Of a stretch of 64,000 bases of DNA, positions 3,159-10,878 are shown piece after piece. The notes below the pieces were generated by a model. That model did no database searches and was not told where the DNA came from. It saw nothing but the letters and a program-made list of their open reading frames with translations. Numbering within the stretch: position 1 is the stretch's first letter; every line of letters starts with the position of its first letter. The stretch comes from Desulfobulbaceae bacterium (lineage in GTDB: Bacteria; Desulfobacterota; Desulfobulbia; Desulfobulbales; Desulfocapsaceae). Where the stretch lies: contig JAFLKM010000053.1 in NCBI GenBank assembly GCA_019163335.1, forward strand, positions 62,001 through 126,000, read 5' to 3'. The translations under genes and the position numbers were made by a program.

Positions 3159-3590
3159 TTAGGCCGCATTCGCTTCAAGCAGTAAGGCCCGGACCACTTT
3201 GTATTCCTCAAGGCGCGCGTAGTCTTTGTCTGTCGGTTGCGCTATTCGGCTCAGATCCATGTTTTCGGCGTTGTCCGCAAGTTTGACCGGGAGTGCAATG
3301 GAATTCCCGGCGGCCCGGGTTGCAGCTTGGATACGGGATTCACCTGGTAACTTGGTCAGTGCAGCAACTGCGTCAATGACCGGTGGGGGAAATCCCATAT
3401 TGACCAGACAGGAAAGCGTGATGGTGGTGTCTTCAACCACATCGTGAAGGACTGCGGCCATCCGTTCGTATTCTGTACATACCCGCAGCATGACCTTCAA
3501 TGGGTGCAGGATGTAGGGCTGACCTGCCTTGTCAACTTGCCCGGCGTGAGCTGAGGCTGCGATCTGTATCGCTTTTTCAAGTGTTGCCAT
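3159..3590 (-). CDS. Small HD-domain hydrolase of the SpoT/MESH1 type
   Basis: This 143-residue protein consists almost entirely of one HD domain. The metal-binding motifs of the RelA/SpoT hydrolase family are present: HAGQVDKAGQPYILHP near 15-30, AAVLHDVVEDT near 46-56 (the HD pair) and KLADNAENMD near 103-112. There is no synthetase, TGS or ACT domain, so it corresponds to a small alarmone hydrolase or MESH1-like enzyme that may degrade (p)ppGpp or NADPH. The KLADxxxN motif has NAEN where SpoT usually has RLHN. It is a single gene with no operon partner. The substrate is inferred from the family only. Confidence 0.8.
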   Translation of the reverse strand: MATLEKAIQIAASAHAGQVDKAGQPYILHPLKVMLRVCTEYERMAAVLHDVVEDTTITLSCLVNMGFPPPVIDAVAALTKLPGESRIQAATRAAGNSIALPVKLADNAENMDLSRIAQPTDKDYARLEEYKVVRALLLEANAA

Positions 3591-4854: not shown

Positions 4855-6120
4855 TCAGGCCCGCAGCATATAAAGATAACCGACAATCCATTCCTCTTTT
4901 TCCTTACGAATGTTGGCCACAGTAACTTGCAGCACGGTAAAACCGCTCTCCTTGGCCAGATCCTTGATATAGGATTCGGCGTGACCATACCTGCCCATGG
5001 GTTTCAGGCAGAAGCCCTGGTCGGCAAGCTCTGTGGAAAAGAGGAAGATGCCGCCGTCGGCGGTCCTCTTTTTCACCAAGGTGAAAATCTCACGGAGATC
5101 ACCGACATAGATAAAAACATCGGCGGCCAGAACGAGATCAAAGAGGTCCTGGTTTTCCCTTAAAAAGGAACAGATATCCTTTTCATGAAGGCTATCGTAC
5201 AACCCTTTTTTACCTGCGACCTCAAGCATTTTAGGAGAGAGGTCAAAGCCGATCAGTTTTTCAGTCAGATCCTGAAAGGCCTCACCGGACAGCCCTGTGC
5301 CGCAGCCCATATCAAGGATAGTGGGGAAACGATGGCTAGCCTTGCCGGTAAGCATGGCCCTGAGCTGGGCCGGGACAGTATAGCCAAGCTTGTCCACCAG
5401 GCTCTCGTCAAAATGTTCCGAAAAACTGTCAAAGACCCTGCGAATATAGCCCTTAGGGGCTGTGGCCGTGGTCTGGCCGGTGAGCGCAGCCAACATATGG
5501 CTGGCCATGATGGTGTTGTAGTCAAGGGCGATGAGTTTCTGATAGGTGGCAATGGCCTTGTCGACATCTCTTTCCATATGATAGAGATACCCAAGGTTAT
5601 TGAGGGCTTGGGCGTGGTTGGGATTGATTCTGATCACTTGTTCAAAGAACCAGATGCCGTCAGCATGATGATGAAGGTCCTTGCACAAAACTCCTATGTT
5701 ATACAGGGCATCCTCGGCATCAGGGGTGATTGCCAGCACCTTTTCGTAGCAGCTGAAAGCCTTGTCGAATTGGCCCAGCTTTTTCCTGGTCAGGGCCAGG
5801 TTAAAGAAGATGTCGGCATCTTCAGGGCAGAGTTTGGCCGCCTCCTCATAGGCCAGAGCCGCCTGAAGATAGTTGCCCTGTTCAAAGAAGATAATTCCCA
5901 GATTGTAATGGGCAGGAGCCGCCTCAGGTGCCAGGGTTACAACGCGGGTAAACCAGTGGGCGGCTTCGTTCGCTCGTTTTTGTTCAAAAAAGAGCAAGGC
6001 CAGAAGGTAACTGAGCTGCGGGTTGTCCTGATCCTCAGCGAGCAAGGCTTGATAACCGGCCAAGGCCTGCTCAAAATCTCCGTCCTGATGATATTTTTGG
6101 GTCTGCGCAAAAAGGTCCAT
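4855..6120 (-). CDS. TPR-repeat protein fused to a SAM-dependent methyltransferase
   Basis: The 421-residue protein has about six tetratricopeptide repeats (residues 1-210; for example APAHYNLGIIFFEQGNYLQA and QALNNLGYLYHMERDVDKA). A class I methyltransferase domain follows (about 230-421), with the SAM-binding glycine motif ILDMGCGTGLSGEAF near 268-282 and the acidic residue ending strand 2 in LIGFDLSPKML. A TPR head joined to a class I methyltransferase is a recurring architecture of unknown substrate; the TPR part presumably recruits a protein target. The gene stands alone, flanked by direct repeats and by the stub of a RAYT transposase immediately upstream, so it may have arrived or been rearranged with that element. 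Confidence 0.85.
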   Translation of the reverse strand: MDLFAQTQKYHQDGDFEQALAGYQALLAEDQDNPQLSYLLALLFFEQKRANEAAHWFTRVVTLAPEAAPAHYNLGIIFFEQGNYLQAALAYEEAAKLCPEDADIFFNLALTRKKLGQFDKAFSCYEKVLAITPDAEDALYNIGVLCKDLHHHADGIWFFEQVIRINPNHAQALNNLGYLYHMERDVDKAIATYQKLIALDYNTIMASHMLAALTGQTTATAPKGYIRRVFDSFSEHFDESLVDKLGYTVPAQLRAMLTGKASHRFPTILDMGCGTGLSGEAFQDLTEKLIGFDLSPKMLEVAGKKGLYDSLHEKDICSFLRENQDLFDLVLAADVFIYVGDLREIFTLVKKRTADGGIFLFSTELADQGFCLKPMGRYGHAESYIKDLAKESGFTVLQVTVANIRKEKEEWIVGYLYMLRA

Positions 6121-6245
6121 AATATCTTACGTGATTGCGGCAAGAGAGTTGGTGAGCTCGCCTGCCATCTTGGGGTTGTCAAACAATTGAAAAATGGGAC
6201 AGATTCGGCCAGCCACGAATAGGGGGACACTATACCTGTTTTTTC

Positions 6246-6299
6246 CTGAGTCACGTGGTGAGGAATTCCGGGAGCGATTATACGGGCGATTCTTAGCAT
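6246..6299 (-). pseudogene. RAYT (Y1) transposase, N-terminal stub
   Basis: Eighteen codons read MLRIARIIAPGIPHHVTQ, the conserved opening of REP-associated tyrosine transposases. The His-His pair of the HUH nuclease family follows much later in an intact protein and is absent here. After Gln the frame turns into unrelated sequence, so only the 5' end remains. Confidence 0.7.
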
Positions 6300-6383
6300 A
6301 AAAAATATGCTGCTGCTATGGATGTCTTATGTAAAGGGCGGAATACGTATGGTGTCCCCCTTATTTCCTCCCCTTATTTCCTA

Positions 6384-6413
6384 CAATCATTCAAAGGAAA
6401 AACGAATCCGTCC
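6384..6413. repeat. 30-bp direct repeat, right copy
   Basis: Exact copy of 4750-4779, lying about 85 bases to the right of the RAYT stub. Confidence 0.85.
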
Positions 6414-6527
6414 ATTTTTCCTCCTGTGTGAGCCTATGCTTTTTCGTATGGTGAAGCAAGACTTGAATTTACTCTGCCACCTTTTAGTTAGAACTGTAGT
6501 CTGTCCCGTTTTACTCCTCACATTTTT

Positions 6528-7520
6528 TTAAACTAGCCTTCCAATGTGTTCGAGCAAATTCTGTTCATTTACAAACGTCAAATCGTACATGCTGCTTAAT
6601 CCCTGGGCCTGTTCCTGGCTCAAACCAACCACGCAAAGGAGGAAGTTGGACTTGTCCATGTGTACTCTTTTGCGTAATTTTAGATACTTCTCAATATCTG
6701 GCCGAAATTCTCCGGTTTTGCATTCTATACAGATTGGCAGTCTACCATCCACAAGGAAAAACACATCCAACTCGTGTAAATCCTCATTTGCAAAAGTGAC
6801 GGAGATATTGCGCGAGCAGGAAAAATTACGCTGCTTGCCCCGAAGGTATTCAGTGATTTTGATAAAGACAAACCATTCGAACCATCCCCCACTGAAAAAC
6901 TGAACAATTGCCGGAGCTGGCTGAAGTGCTAACCGGATAATTTTATCTTGTTTTTGATAGAAGTATTTGGCAACAAAAGAATATTCATACAACTTCTGGC
7001 AGAACTCGATGATTTCCTTGGATTCCTTTTGGCTTTTCTGCGCAAGAGGGATACTGAGATTCTGATAACCCTTTTTCTGGGTTCGTTTGATTTTTTCGAT
7101 GATATCTTTCAATGTGTCATAATTGTCGCCAAGTGATACGGCAACCTCATCAAAAAATCCGGTAGTATCAAGCTGTCTTGGATCAACTTTAATTTTTACC
7201 TTCTGCTTCTTGAACCAATCAACGATTGGTGCATATTGCCCATCGTCTGCAAAAGCTGTCGTGTTGAAGAGGTTAATATCAGCAAAGGAGGGTTGGGGAA
7301 TATCTACATCGTATATTTCCTCAATAACGCTGCATTGTTGCTGTAATTTTTGCAGCTCGTTTCTTTGGGTAAAATATTTCTCCAGAAGTTTTTCTACAAA
7401 CGCCATCGTGTCGTGAATCGGTGTAACCTGTGTACAGCGAGGACATTTGACAGATTTGCCGATATATTCATTGGCTACTTCCCTGAGATGCCCGCACTTG
7501 TAGCAACGAAAAATAGCCAT
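6528..7520 (-). CDS. Zinc-ribbon protein with a Card1/DUF1887-like PD-(D/E)XK nuclease domain
   Basis: The product has 330 residues. The N-terminus is a short zinc ribbon (C6-x2-C9, C26-x2-C29). The middle (about 40-205) is helical and charged with no family that I recognise. The C-terminus (about 205-300) matches the restriction-like fold of DUF1887: GGWFEWFVF around Glu216, then HELDVFF (Glu250, Asp252), a turn, and ICIECKTGEF with Glu266 and Lys268. In Card1/Can2-type proteins this nuclease is joined to a CARF domain that senses cyclic oligoadenylate. Here no CARF fold is evident and a zinc ribbon takes its place. The gene lies beside an attC-like site and an integron-integrase relic, so it may be a captured cassette or defence gene. 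The nuclease fold is likely; the role is unknown. Confidence 0.7.
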   Translation of the reverse strand: MAIFRCYKCGHLREVANEYIGKSVKCPRCTQVTPIHDTMAFVEKLLEKYFTQRNELQKLQQQCSVIEEIYDVDIPQPSFADINLFNTTAFADDGQYAPIVDWFKKQKVKIKVDPRQLDTTGFFDEVAVSLGDNYDTLKDIIEKIKRTQKKGYQNLSIPLAQKSQKESKEIIEFCQKLYEYSFVAKYFYQKQDKIIRLALQPAPAIVQFFSGGWFEWFVFIKITEYLRGKQRNFSCSRNISVTFANEDLHELDVFFLVDGRLPICIECKTGEFRPDIEKYLKLRKRVHMDKSNFLLCVVGLSQEQAQGLSSMYDLTFVNEQNLLEHIGRLV

Positions 7521-7594
7521 CGTAATTTTTCAACCTTTCGTTTTGAAATTAAGTAGTGTGATTGGGGAGATTCGCTTCAGCATACGCGAACGAC

Positions 7595-7662
7595 TGCTAA
7601 CGTGGAATTGAGCCAGAGGCAGGCGTCTTTCCCTGCCGATTGGCTCCAATTTATTGTTGGGC
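7595..7662 (-). mobile_element. attC-like integron recombination site
   Basis: On the minus strand the site opens with GCCCAAC, a perfect RYYYAAC core, and closes with GTTAGCA, a near match to GTTRRRY. Between them is an imperfect palindrome (TTGGAGCCAATCGGCAGG against CCTGCCTCTGGCTCAA) with unpaired extra bases, as in folded attC hairpins, and a short GAAAGACG loop. The total is 68 bases. It lies just upstream of the nuclease gene, between that gene and the integrase relic. Confidence 0.65.
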
Positions 7663-8019
7663 AATTCTGTACAACCTACCCTTTGAATCATGGTTTTTTT
7701 TTTAGGATGATTCAACTAGTTGCGAACATCCATAGCTCCTCTCCAATTCGTGCAAGAAAAAGGAAAAAAGGGAAAAAAGGACAGATTTTTTTTTGGAATT
7801 TTTTATAGATGCCTGTCTGTATTATTTCCATTTGTTGGTGATGCTAAGTGATGGCATAAGGGAAGTCAAACAAAAAGCAGGCCAAAATTTAGTTCAAACC
7901 TTGATTCCCGTCTGATGGAGTAGGTGCAGGACAAGGTTTGTGTTCAGGGGTTGCAAGGGCTGAAAAGACCGGACTCCTCTGTTGGCAAAGAGTGTGGAAG
8001 ATAATCTGAGGCGGTGACG

Positions 8020-8310
8020 CTCCTACATCAGAAGGATCTTGAGGAAGGGTTCGGGGAGGTGTATATTCCTGAGGTTCTGGCCAGTAAATTACCAACACTG
8101 CTCGTGAGGTTGTTTGGCAGTGGGTTTTTCCGGCCAAGGAGCGCTCCATCGACCGCGTTATCATGCCCTTGAATCCGGGCTGCAAAAGACGGTGAAGCGA
8201 GCCGTGGCGTTTGCCGGCATTGACAAAAAGGCCAGTTGTCATACCTTGCGTTAGAGCTTTGTGACCCTTATGCTGGAAAACGGGGTGAATATCCGGGTGC
8301 TTCAGGAGGT
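8020..8310 (+). pseudogene. Integron integrase (IntI) pseudogene
   Basis: Three frame-shifted pieces spell an integron-type tyrosine recombinase in order: LLHQKDLEEGFGEVYIP, then [20 protein letters not shown], then [19 protein letters not shown] followed by [12 protein letters not shown] and, after a TAG at 8252-8254, SFVTLMLENGVNIRVLQE. These match the IntI C-terminal catalytic half; the stop falls where the second His of HTLRH belongs. The N-terminal half and the segment with the catalytic Tyr are gone, although an LME fragment near 7913 may be a further remnant. Two frameshifts, one nonsense codon and truncation make it non-functional. It reads away from the attC-like site and the nuclease gene, as an integrase does relative to its cassettes. 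Confidence 0.8.
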
Positions 8311-8529
8311 TGCAAAGTGCGCTGGATATGTTGCCGGTTTGATTGGGGGCGGGGAGAAGGGGTTGAGGTATGAAGTCAGGGACAGAATGATTTTCGCAAA
8401 AAGTCGCGAAAAAATTCAGTCCCTTGGGCCCTCTCTTTCAGTCCGTCTCCTTGTCTATTTTCCGGGTTATGCAAAAAAAATCCATCCATCTTGAGTAAAA
8501 CCGTAACTGGTTAAAAGGTACATTTAATT

Positions 8530-10878
8530 TTGTCTGAAACGAAAAAAATAATCCCTGCAAAAACAGGTCGTCTGCGGAGCAGGCCGGGCGGCTGGAAGCT
8601 GTTGAAAATTGTGGTGCCGGTGGTGCTTGTGGTTGCCGTGGCCCTGGCCCTGTACGTGGGGTATCTGGACAAGATCATCCGCCACAAGTTTGACGGCAAA
8701 CGCTGGGCCTTGCCCGCTGTGGTCTATGCCCGACCCCTGGAGTTATATCCTGGTCTGTCCCTTACCGCCCCCATGCTGGCCGCAGAGTTGCAGCTTGCCG
8801 GCTATCGGCAGGACAAGGCGGCGAAGGACCCGGGTGGCTATGACCTTGCCGGCAATGTCATCCGTCTTTCCACCAGGGATTTTGCTTTTCCCGACGGTGT
8901 GGAGCAGTCAGCACGCATTACCGTCGAGTTTTCCGGGTCTGCCGTCAAGAAAATCTCGCGCACCGATAACGGTGCCGAGCTGGCCTTGGCGCGTATTGAT
9001 CCGGCCCGCATCGGTAGTTTTCATCCCCTGGAAAATGAAGACCGAGTTGTCTATAAACGGGAAGAGCTGCCCGATTTACTGGTCAAGACCTTGATAGCGG
9101 TGGAGGATCAGCATTTTCAGGCCCATTTCGGAGTTGATCCCTTGGGGATTCTGCGGGCCATGTTTGCCAATATTCGAGCCGGTAAGACCGTCCAGGGCGG
9201 CAGCACCCTGACCCAGCAACTGGTGAAGAATTTTTTCCTGAACAACGAGCGCACCCTGTACCGCAAGTTCAATGAACTGATCATGGCCCTGCTTATTGAG
9301 GCCCATTACAGTAAGGATGAGATCCTCACCGCCTATGCCAACGAGATTTTCCTTGGACAGGATCGGGGGCGGGCGGTGCATGGGTTTGGCCTGGCCAGTC
9401 AGTTTTATTTTCGGCGTGAATTGAAAGATCTCTCGGCCGCCCAGATGGCGATGCTGGTGGGGATGATCAAGGGGCCTTCCTATTATGATCCGCGTCGTGA
9501 GCCGGAACGCTGCCTGCAACGGCGCCAGGTGGTGCTCGATGTGATGCGGGCGGAAGGGGTGATTTCCGATGAGCTCTACGCCACGGCCAAGTCCGCCGGC
9601 ATGGAGAAGGGGGAAATGATCCAGAGCGGGTTTAACCGCTACCCGGCCTTTCTCGATCTGGTGCGCCGTCAGTTGGGCGAGGAGTATCGTGAAGAGGATC
9701 TCACCTCCAATGGCCTGAAGATCCTGACCACCCTTGATCCGCAAGTGCAGACGCAGGTGGAGAAGCATCTGCAGGAGACAATGGCTGCCCTGGAAAAACG
9801 AACAGGGGTTACGGGTTTGGAAGGGGCTGTGATCGTCAGCAGCCGCGAGGGTGGAGAAATCCAGGCCGTGGCTGGTGGACGTGAGGCCATGCAGTCCGGC
9901 TTTAACCGGGCCCTTGACGCCCATCGCCCCATTGGTTCACTCATAAAACCGGTGGTTTATCTGACCGCCCTGAACAACGGCTATACCCTGGCCACCCCGG
10001 TGGATGATATCGTCTTGACCGTCTCTGCCGCCGGTGCCAAGGATTGGCGGCCAGCCAACTATGACAAAAAGGAACATGGCGTGGTGCCATTCTATGAGGC
10101 GCTGGCCCATTCCTATAATCTGTCCACCGTCCGCATCGGGATGGATGTCGGCGTGGAAAAGGTAGTGGAGAATATCGGGCAGATGGGAATCAAGCGCGAC
10201 TTCCAGCCCTATCCTTCTTTTCTCCTGGGGACGGCGGAGATGTCGCCCCTGGAGGTAGCGCGGATGTATCAGGTCTTTGCCACTGGCGGGTTTTATCAGC
10301 CCCAGCGGGTTATCAGCAGCGTGTTGACGTTGGAGAATAAGGTTGTTCAGCGCTTTGGGCTTTCCGTGGAGCAGCGTTTTTCCCCGGAAACCGTCTTCCT
10401 GCTCAACACCGCCCTGCAACGGGTGGTGAGTGAGGGAACGGCGCGGGGTCTTTCCCGTTCTATCCCTGAGACGATCAAAGCCGCCGGCAAGACCGGAACC
10501 ACCGATGAGCTGCGGGATAGCTGGTTTGCTGGGTACACCGGAGATCGGCTGGCCGTTGTCTGGGTCGGCTGCGATGACAACAAGCCGACAAAGCTCACCG
10601 GCGCCAGTGGCGCCATGGTGGTCTGGGGTAAAATTATGCAGTCCCTGCATCCCCAGCCGCTGGAGCTGACGGAGCCGGAGGGGATTGAATGGGCCCGCAT
10701 CAATGCCGAGTCCTACGGCTATTCTGATGAGGCTTCCCGGGCAAATGTGGTGTTGCCTTTTATGGCAGGAACTGTTCCTGCCGGGGCTGAGCGTCCTTTG
10801 CCGTCGTCGTCCGGCGGGGAGCGGCAGGGGGGCAATGGCCCTGATCTCTGGAATACGATCCGCGATTGGTTTCAGTGA
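8530..10878 (+). CDS. mrcB: Bifunctional penicillin-binding protein 1b
   Basis: This class A PBP polymerises lipid II and cross-links the glycan strands in the periplasm. It has 782 residues: a cytoplasmic tail, one membrane helix (about 25-45), a UB2H-like region (about 60-160), and a GT51 transglycosylase with VEDQHFQAHFG (Glu192) and QGGSTLTQQLVKN. The transpeptidase carries S470-x-x-K, SYN at 528-530 and KTGT at 654-657. All catalytic motifs are intact, and the UB2H-like part favours 1b over 1a. Translation appears to start at TTG after an AAAAGG; no ATG is available near the expected N-terminus. A TPR lipoprotein gene follows and may encode a partner. Confidence 0.93.
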   Translation: MSETKKIIPAKTGRLRSRPGGWKLLKIVVPVVLVVAVALALYVGYLDKIIRHKFDGKRWALPAVVYARPLELYPGLSLTAPMLAAELQLAGYRQDKAAKDPGGYDLAGNVIRLSTRDFAFPDGVEQSARITVEFSGSAVKKISRTDNGAELALARIDPARIGSFHPLENEDRVVYKREELPDLLVKTLIAVEDQHFQAHFGVDPLGILRAMFANIRAGKTVQGGSTLTQQLVKNFFLNNERTLYRKFNELIMALLIEAHYSKDEILTAYANEIFLGQDRGRAVHGFGLASQFYFRRELKDLSAAQMAMLVGMIKGPSYYDPRREPERCLQRRQVVLDVMRAEGVISDELYATAKSAGMEKGEMIQSGFNRYPAFLDLVRRQLGEEYREEDLTSNGLKILTTLDPQVQTQVEKHLQETMAALEKRTGVTGLEGAVIVSSREGGEIQAVAGGREAMQSGFNRALDAHRPIGSLIKPVVYLTALNNGYTLATPVDDIVLTVSAAGAKDWRPANYDKKEHGVVPFYEALAHSYNLSTVRIGMDVGVEKVVENIGQMGIKRDFQPYPSFLLGTAEMSPLEVARMYQVFATGGFYQPQRVISSVLTLENKVVQRFGLSVEQRFSPETVFLLNTALQRVVSEGTARGLSRSIPETIKAAGKTGTTDELRDSWFAGYTGDRLAVVWVGCDDNKPTKLTGASGAMVVWGKIMQSLHPQPLELTEPEGIEWARINAESYGYSDEASRANVVLPFMAGTVPAGAERPLPSSSGGERQGGNGPDLWNTIRDWFQ

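Follow-up and report, generated by a model that had tools for sequence, protein, structure and literature searches.

The locus and its integron slot

The window, by which we mean the whole 64,000-nucleotide stretch of DNA that was analysed, comes from a Desulfobulbaceae genome (G000; 3.2 Mb, 99.4% complete) carrying a single copy of the gene studied here, whose product we refer to as P0001. The gene, the segments of its protein and the surrounding features are as follows:

6528-7520, minus strand: P0001, an intact ORF of 330 residues, CARF-less zinc-ribbon Can2/Card1-type nuclease
7419-7520, minus strand: C4 zinc ribbon, residues 1-34 (C6, C9, C26, C29), with weak Pfam/NCBIfam zinc-ribbon matches
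7323-7409, minus strand: long helix, residues 38-66, predicted coiled coil or dimer element
6915-7232, minus strand: middle domain, residues 97-202, structural equivalent of the CARF-to-core element in Can2/Cdn1
6531-6914, minus strand: PD-(D/E)XK nuclease core, residues 203-330, with catalytic candidates E215, E250, D252, E266 and K268
7595-7662, minus strand: attC-like site (GCCCAAC ... GTTAGCA), in the same orientation as the ORF, whose start codon follows 74 bases downstream
7946-8311, plus strand: intI relic, matching residues 154-286 of an intact 316-residue IntI
6184-7772, no strand: cassette-array slot, the stretch without homology to the sister genome G469
4855-6120, minus strand: conserved left flank, presumably a TPR-methyltransferase-like gene, 96% identical in G469
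8530-10878, plus strand: conserved right flank, which we take to be a penicillin-binding protein gene; an intact intI adjoins it in three congeners

The preliminary description of this locus had recognised a real, open reading frame but left its strand unstated; the frame is open on the minus strand, and stops abound on the plus strand over these coordinates. The GC content of the gene is 0.41, against 0.51-0.58 in the flanking genes. Elsewhere in the window (3159-3590, minus strand) lies a gene for a 143-residue HD-domain protein, which we take to resemble small (p)ppGpp hydrolases.

The attC and intI debris reported beside the gene are both real. The attC-like site (read from 7662 to 7595) is slightly irregular, with an R' box off consensus, and was missed by a strict scan; a loosened scan, whose parameters were set after the site had been seen, scored it at 24, against a null of 1.2 shuffled matches of at least 17 per 64 kb. 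The site precedes the ORF. No attC was found after the ORF by either the strict or the loosened scan, and the ORF is therefore at most a putative cassette. The intI relic represents the C-terminal half of the gene and contains an internal TAG and frame breaks.

Both flanking proteins are 96-97% identical in G469, where the slot measures 3.6 kb and holds several other attC sites, compared with 1.6 kb, the ORF and one attC here. One attC of the sister array (L122, 5853-5917) is near-perfectly palindromic and lies among other attC sites in both orientations. At the penicillin-binding protein gene of eight congener regions, an intact intI lies directly before the gene in three (L123, L124, L125), a broken one is present in two (L122, L126) and none is found in the remaining three. 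A sedentary chromosomal integron is seen beside this gene (window 7946-8530; L122-L126); its intI shows decay in G469 and G470 as well as in the window genome. Integrons are common in the taxonomic family, with 55/93 genomes matching TIGR02249 at E ≤ 1e-40. The gene for P0001 is absent from all 16 other genomes of the window's genus. Given this absence and the different slot content of G469, the gene was apparently gained recently by this species, and it appears to be a new arrival in the array slot of a chromosomal integron that has decayed.

This setting is the main argument for regarding P0001 as a mobile anti-phage effector in an integron cassette, which integron recombination moves and which kills or blocks phage without a cyclic oligoadenylate (cOA) signal: the gene sits in an array slot, just after an attC and in cassette orientation, with an intI relic adjoining; the slot differs in the sister genome, the congeners lack the gene and its GC content deviates. 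Moreover, Can2 and Card1, the characterised proteins to which it is most closely related, serve as nucleases in defence according to the available part of PMC7969007. The evidence from other loci, given below, makes this account of P0001 possible but doubtful.

Nuclease core and middle domain

The Pfam family Card1_endonuc (PF09002) matches P0001 at residues 206-278 (E 8e-6) with 25.9 bits, 0.5 bit below its curated cut-off of 26.4 bits. Searched with phmmer against the PDB, the protein matches Can2, Cdn1 and Card1 chains at approximately residues 204-278 (best E 1.2e-4), whilst the CARF_PDDEXK models of PADLOC match down to E 1.8e-13, the best of them spanning residues 124-277. A profile of the nuclease domain of the family, compared with one of 21 CARF-type proteins, gave E 3e-13. 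The motifs present are GGWFEW, ELD (250-252) and, 13 residues on, ECK (266-268), so that the ELD-x(13)-ECK signature was noted correctly in both spacing and numbering. W213, E215, E250, D252, E266 and K268 are invariant in all 19 full-length rows of the family alignment.

Chance resemblance or a pseudogene has nothing in its favour apart from the sub-threshold Pfam score. This reading has already been refuted by conservation: the ORF is intact, its family is conserved with invariant catalytic residues and dN/dS is ~0.1 (0.095 at dS 1.0 by NG86 for the window gene against L002). Purifying selection acts on this conserved branch, and we consider the chance of mere resemblance or decay negligible.

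An AlphaFold2 model, built from an input alignment of 12 rows (8 full length and 4 pieces), reached a pLDDT of 84.4. Its order is zinc-ribbon strands, a helix at 38-64, disorder at ~65-69, the helices and strands of a middle domain, and the nuclease core. The core consists of a helix (203-228), three strands (233-242, 248-257 and 261-268), a further helix (273-286) and a strand (293-297); these are the elements of the PD-(D/E)XK fold. Every one of the 20 PDB matches that Foldseek returned at E ≤ 0.001 was VC1899, Can2, Card1 or Cdn1, and a viral structure library gave no match at that threshold. Taken together, Pfam, phmmer, PADLOC, Foldseek, VIA superposition and the invariant catalytic residues uphold the proposal of a Card1/Can2-type nuclease, and by sequence and model P0001 is a Can2-type PD-(D/E)XK nuclease with GGWxE, E-x-D and ExK motifs.

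The likeness extends beyond the core. With VIA-align, residues 97-330 of the model superpose on residues 149-399 of Cdn1 (9u49; Z 17.5, rmsd 3.5, 226 aligned), with similar results for Can2, VC1899 and Card1 (Z 11.9-17.5 over 184-227 residues across the set). In the available part of PMC12825302 the linker from CARF to nuclease domain of Cdn1 is placed at 151-157, and since the alignment begins at 149, the part held in common with P0001 starts just after CARF. Can2, as far as the accessible text of PMC7969007 describes it, has two antiparallel strands surrounded by four helices as an addition to its nuclease core, and this motif fits the middle domain of P0001. The Can2 likeness had been confined to the C-terminal third; the nuclease is indeed there, but structurally the resemblance spans 97-330, and the 'charged helical middle' (~97-202) corresponds by superposition to the middle element of Can2/Cdn1. 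For the middle domain this correspondence is structural only, as no sequence likeness to CARF-type relatives was detectable by profile tests. A CARF domain hidden in the middle region, which the preliminary description had named as a refutation of its proposal, was also considered; the model shows none there, and the superposition and profile tests likewise rule it out.

Can2, Card1 and Cdn1 (DUF1887, PF09002; PDB 7bdv, 6wxw, 9u49, 8q3y) have the same post-CARF middle domain and core as P0001, with GGW[FL]E, ELD and ECK, but carry a CARF domain where P0001 has a zinc ribbon and helix. The best Foldseek match is VC1899 of Vibrio cholerae (PDB 1xmx), an orphan, CRISPR-independent DUF1887 protein with the same nuclease which, unlike P0001, retains CARF; the available part of PMC7969007 likewise calls it an orphan and credits it with a weak RNase activity that cA4 does not regulate. 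PADLOC files a model of the same nuclease kind, PD_DExK (PDLC01131; 205 positions), apart from the CARF fusions, while its description places it in one family with the CARF-fused nuclease (1XMX). This model matches P0001 at residues 205-270 (E 2.7e-5); it is short, and neither a zinc ribbon nor a coiled coil is named there.

Part of the middle domain also resembles ribosomal protein S8. Residues 132-209 superpose on S8 (1sei) with a VIA Z of 9.0 (rmsd 2.4, 69 residues, 22% identity), and the alpha-beta-alpha-beta-beta unit of the S8 N-domain is found in both; the S8 C-domain is missing from P0001, and sequence support for the likeness is weak. A profile of residues 130-205 (19 rows), aligned by hhalign to nine S8 sequences (those of 15 S8 loci that were caught by a start pattern), gave E 1.1e-4 and a probability of 56% in the same register as VIA, a score equalled by none of 300 column shuffles. 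The reversed profile and other regions of P0001 gave no signal against the S8 profile, nor did the CARF-type relatives by the same comparison. Adding E. coli S8 to the profile changed little (E 1e-4); used alone, this sequence came second among 27 E. coli control proteins. Ribosomal_S8 was the best Pfam match of the segment, yet with E 0.063 and in one of eight members; a PDB sequence search with the middle-domain segment did not find S8, and Foldseek against the PDB gave a ribosomal chain of the S8 kind at E 0.15 at best. The S8 likeness is no more than suggestive. The zinc ribbon and S8-like domain, the latter borrowed from a ribosomal protein or converging on one, could conceivably dock the nuclease on rRNA or another structured RNA and make it a ribosome- or RNA-sensing suicide or defence nuclease that employs the CRISPR effector module without a second messenger, a scenario we consider quite improbable.

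The N-terminal segment and the missing CARF

The four-cysteine ribbon in place of CARF is borne out by the data. The ribbon strands of the model lie at 2-5, 12-15, 23-25 and 32-37, and the four cysteine columns are invariant in 19/19 rows, 6 of which had been picked with a pattern containing C6 and from which frame-broken members were left out. Residues 1-96 form a zinc ribbon, a helix and a disordered linker in the full model, and modelled alone they again give ribbon and helix (pLDDT 73.5). A fold search with these 96 residues gave a best VIA Z of 3.2 and no Foldseek match at E ≤ 0.001; with scores this weak, the zinc-ribbon fold class rests on the cysteine pattern and the model. A Pfam family search found no CARF match to the N-terminus of P0001. 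Two small phage zinc-ribbon proteins were matched, phrog_9414 at residues 1-50 (E 7.6e-4) and phrog_6417, a translational regulator, at residues 4-31 (E 0.009). The likeness to both lies in the zinc ribbon and both, unlike P0001, lack a nuclease (profiles of 71 and 68 positions).

The long helix carries a heptad pattern (V42-L45-Y49-Q52-L56-L59-C63-I66), and the heptad contrast of residues 42-69 was reached by 8 of 500 shuffles. Order fades after approximately residue 66, where many members have a low-complexity linker. From the heptad pattern we infer that helix 42-69 may be a dimerising coiled coil.

In Can2 and Cdn1 it is the CARF dimers that join the nuclease domains upon cOA binding, according to the available parts of PMC7969007 and PMC12825302. 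Because CARF is absent from P0001, with zinc ribbon and helix in its place, the protein is not expected to respond to cyclic oligoadenylate. The preliminary description had suggested activation without this messenger, and the lack of CARF together with the Cas10 search supports that as an expectation. Cas10 was not found in the host genome: the palm search returned two borderline PF22335 matches, both GGDEF cyclases by their GGEEF motif, and as a control search also gave matches in E. coli, borderline matches were not taken as Cas10. A type III CRISPR link was rejected on this result from the one genome. Can2 and Card1 are tied to type III CRISPR and none was found in the P0001 genome, but VC1899 is also without it and the difference is not decisive.

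The effectors with the nuclease module most like that of P0001 are type III ancillary ones, which would suit a CRISPR ancillary nuclease that has lost its CARF and is switched by a cOA-sensing partner protein. Against this, Cas10 was not found in the host genome, the one genome searched, and the loci show no recurrent partner gene; we judge it very improbable.

Distribution, genomic context and proposed role

Relatives were found at 10 loci in a genome-contig search. A search of the phylum gave matches in 8/395 genomes, but only those in G000, G339, G252 and G320 belong to the CARF-less zinc-ribbon family, the remainder being CARF-type proteins or bare zinc ribbons. Within the taxonomic family, 11 of 93 genomes matched (8 intact, 1 frame-broken, 1 in two parts on two contigs and 1 fragment), and within one betaproteobacterial order 9 of 399, of which one is the query genome, one is frame-broken and one is CARF-type. 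The 19 full-length members that were compared come from Desulfobulbaceae and betaproteobacteria. In the tree the Desulfobulbaceae members form one clade (98/96); the betaproteobacterial members have no supported single group, and L047 is a very long branch. L047 (1297-2256) encodes a 319-residue relative with the middle domain and nuclease (EAK, not ECK), a different N-terminus and no zinc ribbon.

Ordinary PF09002 proteins number 24 in the 395 phylum genomes, a fragment and an odd protein (L097 and L098) among them, and 17 have a TGGTK-like CARF motif. None of the 24 has a C4 ribbon in its first 80 residues by pattern search, which rules out the zinc-ribbon architecture as common to such proteins. 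Three PF09002-matching proteins (L092, L094 and L095) start LLLVGSNPLPNY, have no E-x-D...ExK motif by pattern and may be CARF proteins whose nuclease domain is inactive. The literature searched, with many subscription papers outside its scope, yielded no account of a DUF1887 protein that has a zinc ribbon and lacks CARF; in the available part of PMC4012209 a Zn ribbon comes up solely as part of a large kinase-AAA-CARF protein.

The surroundings of the gene elsewhere differ from those in the window. Of the 21 other homologous loci that were scanned, none had a convincing attC beside the gene, the scores of 17-18.5 at L042, L045 and L046 being near the shuffled level and one of them inside the gene; the integron cassette is thereby ruled out as a general vehicle. 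Seven Desulfobulbaceae loci were compared with the window as DNA, and their likeness to it breaks off close to the boundaries of the gene. Its neighbours are mainly housekeeping genes, with none recurrent among 133 ORFs in 19 loci, and include core genes such as pmbA, darP (yjgA), mog, cysE, metG and parE, as well as chaperone genes, some of which we named from our own reading of the sequence. Six of the 8 betaproteobacterial loci L004-L011 (L004, L005, L006, L007, L010 and L011) have the gene flanked by mog and cysE, a placement often seen in Comamonadaceae; in this group the gene is thus solitary and resident, with occasional loss. Frame-broken copies occur at L009 (8001-8974), L010 (8001-9006), L011 (8001-9064) and L045 (335-1311), and those of L010 and L011 are at the conserved mog-cysE place in Rhodoferax.

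A PADLOC scan of 133 of the 134 listed ORFs in the 19 loci gave 33 models at E ≤ 1e-15, each in at most two members, and revealed no defence island or system partners around the gene. Single-protein searches of plasmids, phage genomes and viral contigs, which in the viral-contig scans reach close relatives only, turned up no relative; carriage by mobile elements was rejected for the collections searched. These results, together with the fixed mog-cysE place and the missing second attC, count against the integron-cassette effector set out above. The label 'mobile defence effector' is thus possible for this copy, which occupies an integron array slot and was apparently gained recently, but it is not supported for the family in general.

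The same surroundings would suit a housekeeping or quality-control nuclease, related to RNA turnover, the ribosome or DNA repair, recruited out of the Can2 lineage and without a part in defence. Its solitary position beside core genes, strong purifying selection, the S8-like middle domain and one copy per genome in intact cases all fit such a role. However, the very patchy distribution within both the family and the betaproteobacterial order, and several frame-broken copies, would be unusual for a housekeeping gene, and we think this explanation unlikely.

We consider it probable that P0001 represents a CARF-less branch of Can2/Card1 (DUF1887) proteins, predicted to be a stand-alone, cOA-independent, dimeric metal nuclease with an accessory role in stress or defence. 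The protein retains the post-CARF Can2 module with every catalytic residue, and a C4 zinc ribbon and long helix stand in place of CARF. The helix may form a parallel coiled coil that takes over from the CARF pair in dimerisation and holds the two nuclease domains together, whilst the zinc ribbon and S8-like middle domain would select the nucleic acid, with RNA or a structured or single-stranded nucleic acid the more likely substrate. If pairing through the coiled coil is permanent, control must lie in substrate choice or expression; substrate recognition and expression would then regulate the enzyme rather than cyclic oligoadenylate. It would act alone as an accessory stress or defence nuclease, and its gene may often be lost and now and then relocated, in the present case to the slot of a decaying chromosomal integron.

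The integron slot supplies one clear example of the recent gain of such a gene. Can2 and Card1 are understood as cOA-switched CRISPR effectors, and a conserved branch lacking the sensor would show that their nuclease module works outside cOA signalling. Such a branch would also offer a small stand-alone enzyme with which to ask how such a nuclease is restrained.
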